This document shows, piece after piece, positions 9,337 through 21,012 of a DNA stretch of 35,023 nucleotides. How positions within the stretch are numbered: the first letter of the stretch is position 1; each line of letters starts with the position of its first letter. The translations under genes were made by a program, and so were the position numbers. The notes below the pieces were generated by a model. It ran no database searches, was not told where the DNA came from, and saw nothing but the letters and a program-made list of their open reading frames with translations. The DNA comes from Syntrophomonadaceae bacterium (GTDB lineage: Bacteria > Bacillota > Syntrophomonadia > Syntrophomonadales > Syntrophomonadaceae), in assembly GCA_012718855.1 (NCBI GenBank), contig JAAYBS010000017.1:1-35023 (forward strand), given 5' to 3'.

Positions 9337-10707
9337 TTAAAATGGAATCCGGTTGGTTCTGGACCAGAGTTTCATTTCTTTGGCCGCCTTTAACAATTCA
9401 TCACGGAAATCCGGATGGGCCAGTTCGATCAAACCTTCTGCCCTGCCCCAGGTAGATGTTGCCTTGAAGTTTTTTATTCCGTATTCAGTAACCAGATACT
9501 GGATTTGAGTACGGGGAACAGTTACCGCCGCCCCGGGTGTTAACAGCGGCTTTATACGCGAATGGATATTGCCCTCTTTGTCTTTGAAAGTCGAGCTGAA
9601 AGCCAGGATACCCTTGCCGCCTTTGGAATGAAAAGCTCCAATTACAAAATCCAGCTGTCCCCCGGTTCCCGATATCTGGCGAAGTCCAAATGATTCCGAA
9701 CAAACCTGGCTTAATAAGTCAACTTCCAGAATATTATTAATGGCAATCATATTATCCTGCAAAGCCACTTTGGCGGGGTCATTAGTATGAAGAACCGTAG
9801 TAGATGCACATCGAGGATTATCATTTAGAAAATCATAAGTTTCCTGCATACCCAGACAAAATGAATAGCTGCTCTTATTGATGTCATAAGCTTTTTTGGC
9901 GTTGGTTATTCTTCCTTTCTCATACATGGCTACAAAAGCATCGCAGAACATTTCGCTCTGTATTCCCAAATTCTTTAAATCCGAATCAGCTATCAAATGA
10001 CCGATAAGATTAGGAAGTGCTCCTATTCCCAGCTGCAAACAGGCTCCATCATGAATCTCTTCCAGAATATAGGCCGCAATTTTTCTTTCTTCCGGACTGG
10101 CCTCAGGAGACTTCGGGGTAGTAAATATTGGTGAATTTGAACCTTCTATAATATAATCAACTTCACTGATGTGAACATATTCATCATTACCGCCCAGACA
10201 TCTGGGCATATTCTCATTTACTTCAACTATGGCTATTTTAGCTCCCAGGGCCATACCACGATTATGAGAATTACCCAGTCCAAAATTAAAACAGCCATGC
10301 GCATCCATAGGGGTTACCTGTGCGCACCATACCTGCGGAGCTATACTTGAGTATTCTTCCAGGTTGTAAGCAAGCAGGGTTGCTTCATGATAATTAAAGG
10401 GGTTATGGGCTGCCAGTCCCATATCGGCAGCTTTACGGTCCAACAGAGTAAAATACCAGGAAAAGTATTGAAAGGTCTTCTGTTCAATATCATTTTTAAT
10501 TACTTCAGGAATAGGCAGTACTGAACCGGTTCCCCGGACAGCTACATTTTCTAAACCATCACCGGCACGTTTTCCCAGAGCCATATCAAAATCTACCGGT
10601 TTGGTCGCAAACATTCCATAATCAACTATCCCATTGGATTCAACCAACTTGGCCGCCTGTTCAGCAGTTATCAGTTTGTTTTTATACTCCTGCATATAAG
10701 TACTCAT
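9337..10707 (-). CDS. Acetyl-CoA hydrolase/transferase family CoA-transferase (butyryl-CoA:acetate or 4-hydroxybutyrate CoA-transferase-like)
   Basis: 456 aa; GIGALPNLIGHLI, GIQSEMFCDAFV (catalytic Glu context), GGQLDFVIGAFHSKGGK; SD GGAGGG. Confidence 0.88.
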   Translation of the reverse strand: MSTYMQEYKNKLITAEQAAKLVESNGIVDYGMFATKPVDFDMALGKRAGDGLENVAVRGTGSVLPIPEVIKNDIEQKTFQYFSWYFTLLDRKAADMGLAAHNPFNYHEATLLAYNLEEYSSIAPQVWCAQVTPMDAHGCFNFGLGNSHNRGMALGAKIAIVEVNENMPRCLGGNDEYVHISEVDYIIEGSNSPIFTTPKSPEASPEERKIAAYILEEIHDGACLQLGIGALPNLIGHLIADSDLKNLGIQSEMFCDAFVAMYEKGRITNAKKAYDINKSSYSFCLGMQETYDFLNDNPRCASTTVLHTNDPAKVALQDNMIAINNILEVDLLSQVCSESFGLRQISGTGGQLDFVIGAFHSKGGKGILAFSSTFKDKEGNIHSRIKPLLTPGAAVTVPRTQIQYLVTEYGIKNFKATSTWGRAEGLIELAHPDFRDELLKAAKEMKLWSRTNRIPF

Positions 10708-10781: not shown

Positions 10782-11957
10782 TCATATTACTCCCGTACTT
10801 TTGAACCTTTCCAGGTTTGATAAGTCATATCCCAGTTCCATCAATATTTCATCAGTATGCTGACCAAACAGGGGTGGGGGCAACTGAATTTTTACAGGAC
10901 TCCGGCTAAATTTTACCGGTATACCTAAAAGCTTTATCACTCCTTCCACCGGATGATCTATTTCCTGAACCATTTGGCGATGATCAATCTGTTTATTTTT
11001 AAGTGCCTGTTCCAAATTATTAACCGGCGTTACACAAATATTTAGAGGCTCAAGAATATCCATCCATTCCTGCAGGCTCTTCTGAAGTGTTAGTGATTCA
11101 ATCTTTTGAATCATCTTCTCCTGAACATCAGGTGGTCCGAATTGAGTTTCAATAAATTCATCACAACCTATGGTTTTACAAAAAGAACTCCAGAACTTGA
11201 ACTCCAATAATCCGATGGCCAGATAACCTTTGTCAGCAGTTGGGTAAACATTATACCAGGCACTCACACCCATAAGGGGTTCATTACATCGTTCGGCAAA
11301 ATAATTATTGGTGAACAACTCTCCGGCAGTAAGCGTTTGGAAACTCAGGGCAGCTTCCTGAATGGAAACATCTATATACTGCCCGCAACCACTTTGTTCC
11401 CGTTCCCATAACGCAGCCAGCAGAGCAAAAGCGGTCCATAAAGATGCTGCCATATCAGCAATGGGAACTCCCGAAATAACCGGCTCACTATTTTTCCTTC
11501 CCACACCCTTAAGTATTCCGCTTATACCCTGCAGGTTTATATCATGAGCTGGGAAGGAACTATACGGTCCGGTTTGCCCATAAGCAGAAATAGAGGCCAT
11601 TATAATTCGGGGATTTCTTTCCTGTAATTGTGGATAATCCAGTCCAATCTTTTTTAATACTCCTGGTCGATACTGCTCAATGACTATATCAGCCGTATCT
11701 ACCAAACGCATAAATACTTCACGGCCTGAATCAGTCCAGATATCCAGTTTAATACTTTTCTTATTGCGATTCAGAGCCAGAAAATAACCGCTCTCCGACT
11801 TGCCCAGTGGTGGATACCAGCGAATAAAATCTCCCCCTCTGGGGTTTTCGATTTTGATAACCTCGGCTCCAAGATCACCAAGAGCCATTGTGCAATAGGG
11901 ACCGGATTGCAGCCTGGTAAGGTCAATTATTCGAATGTCCTTTAATAAACCTGCCAT
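10782..11957 (-). CDS. CaiB/BaiF family (class III) CoA-transferase
   Basis: DLTRLQSGPYCTMALGDLGAEVIKIENPRGGD and GVPIADMAASLWTAFALLAAL with expected catalytic Asp; SD GGAGG. Confidence 0.93.
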   Translation of the reverse strand: MAGLLKDIRIIDLTRLQSGPYCTMALGDLGAEVIKIENPRGGDFIRWYPPLGKSESGYFLALNRNKKSIKLDIWTDSGREVFMRLVDTADIVIEQYRPGVLKKIGLDYPQLQERNPRIIMASISAYGQTGPYSSFPAHDINLQGISGILKGVGRKNSEPVISGVPIADMAASLWTAFALLAALWEREQSGCGQYIDVSIQEAALSFQTLTAGELFTNNYFAERCNEPLMGVSAWYNVYPTADKGYLAIGLLEFKFWSSFCKTIGCDEFIETQFGPPDVQEKMIQKIESLTLQKSLQEWMDILEPLNICVTPVNNLEQALKNKQIDHRQMVQEIDHPVEGVIKLLGIPVKFSRSPVKIQLPPPLFGQHTDEILMELGYDLSNLERFKSTGVI

Positions 11958-12140
11958 TTTATTCCTCCATAACCCATTACCAATTGCTCAATTGTTTCAA
12001 ACCAGACACATCATTAGACCTTCCAGCTTAGTTTCCGAACCTGACTCTCAACTACTTATCCGGGAATAATTCCAGTAGAATAATTCATTAAAGTAATTAT
12101 CTCCCTCCTTTGGGTCAATAATGACCTTATGTAATGTATA

Positions 12141-12157
12141 TGCAAAATATTAGCCAA
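12141..12157 (-). promoter_or_regulatory. Predicted sigma-54 (-24/-12) promoter for the CoA-transferase operon
   Basis: Minus strand TTGGC-TAATATT-TTGCA: TGGC-N7-TTGC, the canonical GG/GC spacing, about 185 nt upstream of the CDS at 11957. Confidence 0.7.
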
Positions 12158-12208: not shown

Positions 12209-12226
12209 TGTTTCATTTCCGAAACA
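12209..12226. promoter_or_regulatory. Palindrome TGTTTC-N6-GAAACA, candidate UAS
   Basis: Perfect 6-bp inverted repeat between sigma-54 promoter and activator gene. Confidence 0.45.
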
Positions 12227-12275: not shown

Positions 12276-12320
12276 AAGTTGTTGCAAATACGTTACACTG
12301 TTACATATTTGCAACAACTT
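12276..12320. promoter_or_regulatory. Perfect 15-bp inverted repeat with 15-bp spacer, candidate enhancer (UAS) for the adjacent activator
   Basis: AAGTTGTTGCAAATA-cgttacactgttaca-TATTTGCAACAACTT. Confidence 0.7.
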
Positions 12321-12380
12321 GTTTGATTATTCGGAATATATTTGCTATTCTATAATTAGTTTTAAAGGGGGCCTTTTTTT

Positions 12381-13817
12381 ATGGATAGTATTAAAAATAC
12401 TGATGTTTTTAATATGGAAGAGTCAGAAATGCTAAAACAAATTTTTAATCTTCCCTATGAAGGGGCGATCTTTGTTGACCACCAAGGCATCATACGTTTA
12501 GTAAATGATACCCTTTGCACTTATCTGGATTTAACTCAGGAGCAATTGATTGGACATCACATTGATGAATTTGAATTTGATCCCTATTTAATGAATGTGA
12601 TAAATACCGGCCGACCGGACCTTTTGGCCTTTTATCCCCATAATAAAGTACTGGCCACCCGCCAGCCGGTTATTGCTGATAATATAATTATTGGTGTAGT
12701 TGCCCGATATGAAGCATTTGACTTAACTTGTGTAAAAAAGAATCTCATAGACTTTGACGATTATATAAACATTATTTCCCGCATTAATACTCAGGATATA
12801 ATGCAAAATGTTGCCAAATTTATGCATGAATTAAAGTCCTATCAGGATGAATTCAACCTTGAACCGGTTGCCGGGGCAGGCAAGGAAATTATTAAAGGAA
12901 TGAGCCCAATTATTAAAGCTTTGCGGGAGACCATATTATGGATCGGCAGTTCTCCGTCCTCAGTACTCATTAGCGGAGAAAGCGGTACCGGCAAAGAATT
13001 ATTTGCCCAATCAATTCATTATAGCGGTGCGCGTGCTGAAAAGCCTTTCGTTAAGGTAAACTGTGCCGCCATACCTGAACCGCTTTTGGAATCAGAACTG
13101 TTTGGTTATGTTGAAGGAGCATTCACCGGAGCCCGCAAAGGAGGGAAAATCGGTAAGTTTGAACAAGCCAACGGCGGAACCATATTTCTTGATGAAATTG
13201 GCGATATGCCTCTATCGATGCAGGCTAAATTGTTAAGAGTTCTCCAGGAAAGAGAAATTGAGCGTATAGGTGATGATCATACCATCCCTGTGGATGTACG
13301 AGTCATTTCAGCTACCAACAAAGACTTGAAATGGATGATCAACCAGGGCACTTTCCGGCCTGATCTCTATTATCGGCTAAATGTTGTCAACCTTTATATT
13401 CCGCCTTTGCGGGAAAGAACTGAAGACATCCCCATTTTAGTCCATTATTATCTGGAGCAGCTTAATACCAAGCTGGGCTTAAAGATTCAATCCATAGAGG
13501 ATGATGCCATGCGGGCCCTGCTTCAATACAACTGGCCAGGGAATACCAGAGAATTAATTAATGTACTGGAAACTTCTATGAATTTTTGTCGTCACGCGAC
13601 TCTTACCAGTGACACTCTGCCTTTATTTCTTCACCGGCAATCGGTTGATGAAATTCCTGTAGATTATGATCTGAAATCAGGAAAAGAGGTGGCAGAAAAA
13701 GAACGGATCAGTACGGCATTAAAAAGGAGTTACGGTAATCGCCAGCAGGCTGCTGCCATATTAGGTATTTCCCGTACCACACTTTACCGATTGATGAAAA
13801 AGCACCAAATAGAATAA
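12381..13817 (+). CDS. Sigma-54-dependent transcriptional activator (PAS, AAA+, Fis HTH)
   Basis: N-terminal PAS-like region; Walker A GESGTGKE; GAFTGA sigma-54 contact loop; GGTIFLDEIGDMP; C-terminal NRQQAAAILGISRTTLYRLMKK. Confidence 0.95.
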   Translation: MDSIKNTDVFNMEESEMLKQIFNLPYEGAIFVDHQGIIRLVNDTLCTYLDLTQEQLIGHHIDEFEFDPYLMNVINTGRPDLLAFYPHNKVLATRQPVIADNIIIGVVARYEAFDLTCVKKNLIDFDDYINIISRINTQDIMQNVAKFMHELKSYQDEFNLEPVAGAGKEIIKGMSPIIKALRETILWIGSSPSSVLISGESGTGKELFAQSIHYSGARAEKPFVKVNCAAIPEPLLESELFGYVEGAFTGARKGGKIGKFEQANGGTIFLDEIGDMPLSMQAKLLRVLQEREIERIGDDHTIPVDVRVISATNKDLKWMINQGTFRPDLYYRLNVVNLYIPPLRERTEDIPILVHYYLEQLNTKLGLKIQSIEDDAMRALLQYNWPGNTRELINVLETSMNFCRHATLTSDTLPLFLHRQSVDEIPVDYDLKSGKEVAEKERISTALKRSYGNRQQAAAILGISRTTLYRLMKKHQIE

Positions 13818-17562: not shown

Positions 17563-17588
17563 CCGTCTGGTCTGATTAAGAGGTTTTT

Positions 17589-17628
17589 AAAAAACGAGTC
17601 AGAGCTAATAAATTCTGACTCGTTTTTT
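17589..17628 (+). terminator. Rho-independent terminator of the GntR/ABC operon
   Basis: AAAAAACGAGTCAGA...TCTGACTCGTTTTTT, 15-bp arms. Confidence 0.92.
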
Positions 17629-17658
17629 ATATGCTTTATTTACCCTGGAACAGTCCGG

Positions 17659-20847: not shown

Positions 20848-21012
20848 TATAAATGAGGATTTTGCAAAATTAACTTTACCTCTAATTTTCATGTTATTTT
20901 AGAATGTCATCCTGAGCGATAGTGAAGGATCTACTGTACTTATGAGACTCTTCGCTATCGCTCAGAGTGACAATGCTGGGGATTTTTGAATTATGCAAAA
21001 CTCTCATAAATA
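20848..21012. repeat. MITE/REP-like palindromic element, copy 2 (nested inverted repeats)
   Basis: Inner arms TGTCATCCTGAGCGATAGTGAAG / CTTCGCTATCGCTCAGAGTGACA (20905..20972); outer imperfect arms ATGAGGATTTTGCAAAATT (20853..20871) / AATTATGCAAAACTCTCAT (20989..21007). Confidence 0.7.

Follow-up and report, generated by a model that had tools for sequence, protein, structure and literature searches.

A predicted double-dyad enhancer for a sigma-54 activator beside a divergent CoA-transferase operon in a Syntrophomonadaceae genome

Results

The palindrome at positions 12276–12320 of the window (the whole stretch of Syntrophomonadaceae DNA that was analysed, 35,023 nucleotides) is read from its sequence, with a probability of about 0.85, as a bipartite enhancer through which the adjacent PAS-AAA+-Fis activator would drive the divergent CoA-transferase operon. 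Its best parse is as two adjacent 18-bp TGT-N12-ACA dyads, TGTTGCAAATACGTTACA - C - TGTTACATATTTGCAACA, which, together with a third dyad, probably switch that operon on. A preliminary description had proposed a binding site for the adjacent Fis-HTH regulator at the sigma-54 promoter; this role most probably stands, while the division into 15-bp half-sites that came with it does not. The features are as follows.

12276..12320, no strand: inverted repeat AAGTTGTTGCAAATA-N15-TATTTGCAACAACTT, the outer frame of the double dyad, with flanks AAGT/ACTT
12280..12297, no strand: dyad 1, TGTTGCAAATACGTTACA, predicted TGT-N12-ACA enhancer site
12299..12316, no strand: dyad 2, TGTTACATATTTGCAACA, predicted TGT-N12-ACA enhancer site, mirroring dyad 1
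12209..12226, no strand: third dyad, TGTTTCATTTCCGAAACA, of the same TGT-N12-ACA class
12141..12157, minus strand: sigma-54 -24/-12 element TTGGCTAATATTTTGCA, TTGGC-N7-TTGCA, with the canonical TGGC-N7-TTGC spacing
12381..13817, plus strand: activator gene (PAS, AAA+ sigma-54 interaction domain, Fis-type HTH), the presumed binder
10782..11957, minus strand: class III (CaiB-type) CoA-transferase, first gene of the divergent operon, presumably activated
9337..10707, minus strand: butyryl-CoA:acetate CoA-transferase-like gene, presumed second gene of the operon (TIGR03948 below cut-off)

Palindrome, promoter and activator

The 15+15 bp inverted repeat is perfect, as first described, with zero mismatches, and its symmetry reaches inward to 22+22 nt about one central base (91% complementary). 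Among the short-range inverted repeats listed for the window, it ranks first together with one other. When 300 order-2 Markov versions of the window were generated, 1 held a perfect 15+15 repeat whose loop did not exceed 60 nt, so the palindrome is unlikely to be a product of chance even with conservation left aside. It occurs as a single copy in each of the two genomes of the genus. An intrinsic terminator was considered and rejected, the site having no G+C-rich stem followed by a T-tract; no terminator-like site was predicted in the gap on either strand, in agreement with the earlier reading.

The -12 element at 12142 places the inferred transcription start near 12130 and thus the palindrome centre (12298) at -168, the distance originally given, while the 83 bp from this centre to the ATG at 12381 match the roughly 80 bp reported before. 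The activator (478 aa) is intact, with matches to PF00158 (9.7e-71) and PF02954 (5.9e-13), a weak PAS match and the GAFTGA motif. Its best curated model is PrdR (NF041552), at 429 bits against a cut-off of 795, and it is a relative, not PrdR itself. RpoN is encoded in the same genome (PF04552, 2.7e-61).

Two complete dyads instead of two half-sites

Dyads 1 and 2 lie one base apart as mirror images, with their centres 19 bp from each other. The central 15 bp, previously written as N15, are not a neutral spacer but contain the inner half-sites of both dyads, and a recognition unit made of 15-bp half-sites across such a spacer was not supported. The genome scan with the half-site TTGTTGCAAATA that had been suggested was run and returned no regulon: the two exact copies were the palindrome itself, and one-mismatch copies exceeded the reversed control by a factor of only about 1.7. 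This outcome is explained if the recognition unit is the pair of 18-bp dyads and not the 15-bp half-site. Reading each arm as a separate dyad centred on TTGCAA was also tried and discarded, since the same-genus copy has TTGCAG there and yet keeps TGT...ACA intact.

The third dyad, overlooked in the preliminary description, stands alone on the promoter side. Measured from the inferred start, the dyad centres are at about -88 (third dyad), -159 and -178. The 35-kb window contains three matches to the consensus TGTWNC-N6-GNWACA (0.04 expected), each of them within the 423-bp divergent gap. Since this consensus is, beyond TGT/ACA, partly fitted to these very sites, the literature motif TGT-N12-ACA, fixed beforehand, was also tested: it gave four matches in the gap, a number reached in none of 20,000 shuffles and none of 5,000 Markov copies. 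The window as a whole shows no enrichment of the bare motif (6 against 6.4 expected), so it is the clustering that counts.

The fourth of these matches, a weaker one at 11993–12010 (TGTTTCAAACCAGACACA), falls downstream of the inferred start, within the CoA-transferase leader; it is found in the same-genus genome as TGTTTCAGACAACACACA and may be due to chance.

A search for further regulon members in the 83%-complete genome gave no clear candidate, and other single-dyad matches lay mostly inside open frames; single-dyad matches elsewhere in the two genomes of the genus were not counted as members. Exceptions outside open frames in the window's genome (G000) were C48:7693, between two genes, and C3:14402, just before another activator gene. 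At the latter position (C3:14402–14419, locus L150:1501–1518) the symmetric dyad TGTAACAGTTGTGTTACA is intergenic; the open frame that begins 48 bp further on encodes a different sigma-54 activator, for which the dyad is possibly the enhancer.

Conservation within the genus

The preliminary description had made its proposal depend on conservation in related divergent regions, and the arrangement is indeed kept in a same-genus genome, the one genome (G001) on which same-genus conservation rests. Its activator is 91% identical to that of the window, and its palindrome at 2504–2548 shares 40 of 45 bases and extends to 24+24. Dyad 1 is present as TGTTGCAGATATGTTACA, with changes confined to the inner N6, dyad 2 as TGTTACGTATCTGCAACA and the third dyad as TGTTTCATCTCTGAAACA; the -24/-12 element is kept as TTGGCTAATATCTTGCA. 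Over the three dyads, all 36 half-site bases are identical between the two genomes, against 12 of 18 in the inner N6; such a split of the changes (0/36 versus 6/18) has a hypergeometric chance of about 0.0007 by hand calculation. The gap stretches flanking the dyads are 53–56% identical. In G001 the stretch from promoter to double dyad is longer by about 170 bp, and survival of the predicted enhancer despite this extra DNA fits a looping, distance-tolerant element.

Relatives in the family and phylum

At the DNA level the palindrome core was found in both genomes of the genus, with no match in the other 52 family genomes. Orthologs of the activator were available at the same-genus level and then at 49–58% identity, with nothing between. 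Those at 49–58% mostly face a divergent acyl-CoA gene (class III CoA-transferase, thiolase or enoyl-CoA hydratase) with a -24/-12 promoter. Of the orthologs at 50–55% identity, most have different dyads, AGTCTCA-N4-TGAGACT, so that the geometry alone is kept family-wide and the exact letters are not.

The dyads vary with the recognition helix of the activator. The helix ISRATLFRLLKKHN is paired with AGTCTCA-N4-TGAGACT; the orthologs in G012, G041, G042 and G043 share the divergent-gap position, the 18-bp dyads and the -24/-12 promoter with the window and differ in this helix, these half-sites and a thiolase target. The closest helix, ISRTTLYRLMKKHQ, nearly identical to that of the window, belongs to a paralog on G012 contig C5 and is paired with TGTTCCAGTCCTGCGCCA-T-TGTGCCATCTTTGTAACA, of the same class and with the same 19-bp pitch. 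There, too, a divergent -24/-12 promoter faces acyl-CoA genes, with enoyl-CoA hydratase first, whereas the half-sites read TGTTCC/TGTGCC/TGTAAC, and CCA in place of ACA makes one of the dyads imperfect.

In three orthologs (G007:C188, G026:C1 and G044:C31; loci L149, L122 and L145) the open frame is about 580–593 aa long and includes additional N-terminal sequence similar to a further PAS-like copy; the window activator is shorter. The divergent class III CoA-transferase frame of G007 (L149:5233–5427, minus strand) stops after 65 aa, perhaps through a frameshift or an assembly error.

The double-dyad layout was searched in the 54 family genomes as TGTNNC-N6-GNNACA-N-TGTNNC-N6-GNNACA with one mismatch allowed, which gave nine loci in nine genomes and none in the reversed control. 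When the letters had to be exact and the gap could vary from 0 to 30, three loci matched, with gaps of 1, 1 and 2, one locus being new. The layout recurs at eight other family loci, for ten distinct loci overall, seven of which played no part in deriving the pattern. All ten have an outward -24/-12 match 84–297 bp away, where the background of 0.13 per kb per strand predicts about 0.09 per locus in the scanned stretches. As a search pattern, the double TGTNNC-N6-GNNACA with 1 bp between its copies located sigma-54 promoters at 10/10 family loci, the promoter itself being unused in the search. Among 399 phylum genomes the exact double dyad was found in the window alone, so this exact form is narrow.

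Discussion

Proposed mode of action and known systems

Two dimers of the PAS-AAA+-Fis activator would dock side by side at 12280–12297 and 12299–12316, with the third dyad at 12209–12226 closer to the promoter. Switched on by its signal, the activator would assemble at this enhancer, the DNA between enhancer and promoter would loop, and ATP hydrolysis would open the sigma-54 RNA polymerase at 12157–12141, leading to transcription of the divergent CoA-transferase operon. The autoregulation that the preliminary description also suggested may occur, as the end of dyad 2 is not far from where the activator's own promoter probably lies.

Upstream activating sequences of the TGT-N10-12-ACA class are described for the Clostridiales sigma-54 activators PrdR, CrbR, AhcR, XcgR and others; most activator groups have several sites, mostly 100–250 bp from the promoter, and the sites resemble those of NifA and FhlA (Nie et al. 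2019, PMC6615313). The window shares with this class the TGT...ACA dyads spaced by 12 bp, the multiple sites, the adjoining activator gene and the distance of about 100–250 bp to a -24/-12 promoter, the third dyad being slightly nearer than this usual range. The acyl-CoA metabolism targets are shared with AhcR, XcgR and CrbR. That PrdR is the closest curated family of the window activator and that the PrdR group has TGT-N12-ACA sites support the reading as activator dyads. Unlike the members of the class, the window dyads are 1 bp apart and mirrored, giving a 45-bp palindrome, and both the activator and the target operon are different ones.

The predicted enhancer belongs to a known bacterial kind, and the fixed double-dyad layout alone might prove distinctive. 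A speculative and rather unlikely extension is that mirror-image dyads at a fixed 19-bp pitch form a composite enhancer distinct to the family, where two dimers dock as a unit on one palindrome and perhaps seed the AAA+ ring. In that proposal, a hairpin-templated correction keeping the arms identical may even account for the mirrored change at 12287/12309, which falls in the bases between half-sites. The main reading assigns a concrete predicted binding site to a sigma-54 activator that would control CoA-transferase genes, in a lineage related to Clostridia for which few mapped enhancer sites were found.

Alternative explanations

The most serious competitor, though doubtful, is that the activator binds the double dyad chiefly as an operator of its own vegetative promoter just downstream (about 12323–12356), while the divergent operon would be left to the third dyad. 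The end of dyad 2 at 12316 adjoins a possible -35/-10 pair read by eye (TTGATT-N17-TATTCT), and the block 12321–12352 is 75% identical in G001. Moreover, between the window and G001 the distance from the dyads to the activator start is steadier (83 versus 104 bp) than that to the divergent promoter (168 versus about 340 bp). Nevertheless, the promoter scan shows no sigma-70 match there, the other double-dyad loci of the family always come with an outward -24/-12 element, and some of them have no activator gene within the few kb examined.

It is considerably less probable that the palindrome is a single 45-bp operator for an unrelated regulator sharing the region, e.g., a redox-responsive one or a GntR/TetR-type repressor. 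Its great length and near-perfection, the single mirrored arm change (12287, 12309) and the conservation of the outer flanks AAGT/ACTT would suit such an operator, but both halves fit the activator dyad class, an isolated third copy lies at 12209, the palindrome is single in each genome and the layout tracks sigma-54 promoters family-wide. An RNA hairpin in the activator 5' UTR, as leader structure or attenuator, is slightly more improbable again. RNA folding far exceeds that of shuffled sequences (z of -5.4 on the plus strand, -7.0 on the minus strand and -11 in G001), and the A-T to G-C change at 12287/12309 preserves a pair. Such folding is, however, expected of any palindrome; the changes at 12291/12305 (C-A against T-G) break Watson–Crick pairing, there is no terminator, and a hairpin accounts for neither the separate third dyad nor the family pattern. 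For a chance or mobile palindromic element, no specific point speaks in favour; the rarity of such a repeat in Markov windows and its single copy argue against it, and conservation well above that of the flanks in practice excludes it.

Other repeats in the window

Two further inverted repeats were observed in the window. At 17588–17629, a perfect 16+16 repeat just past a 701-aa open frame has A/T runs at the outer ends of its arms and looks like a bidirectional terminator. At 20905–20972, an inverted repeat of 28 nt with imperfect arms (TGTCATCCTGAGCGATAGTGAAGGATCT / AGACTCTTCGCTATCGCTCAGAGTGACA) has the look of a dispersed palindromic element, and one of the 176 loci examined (L033) contains its core CATCCTGAGCG.
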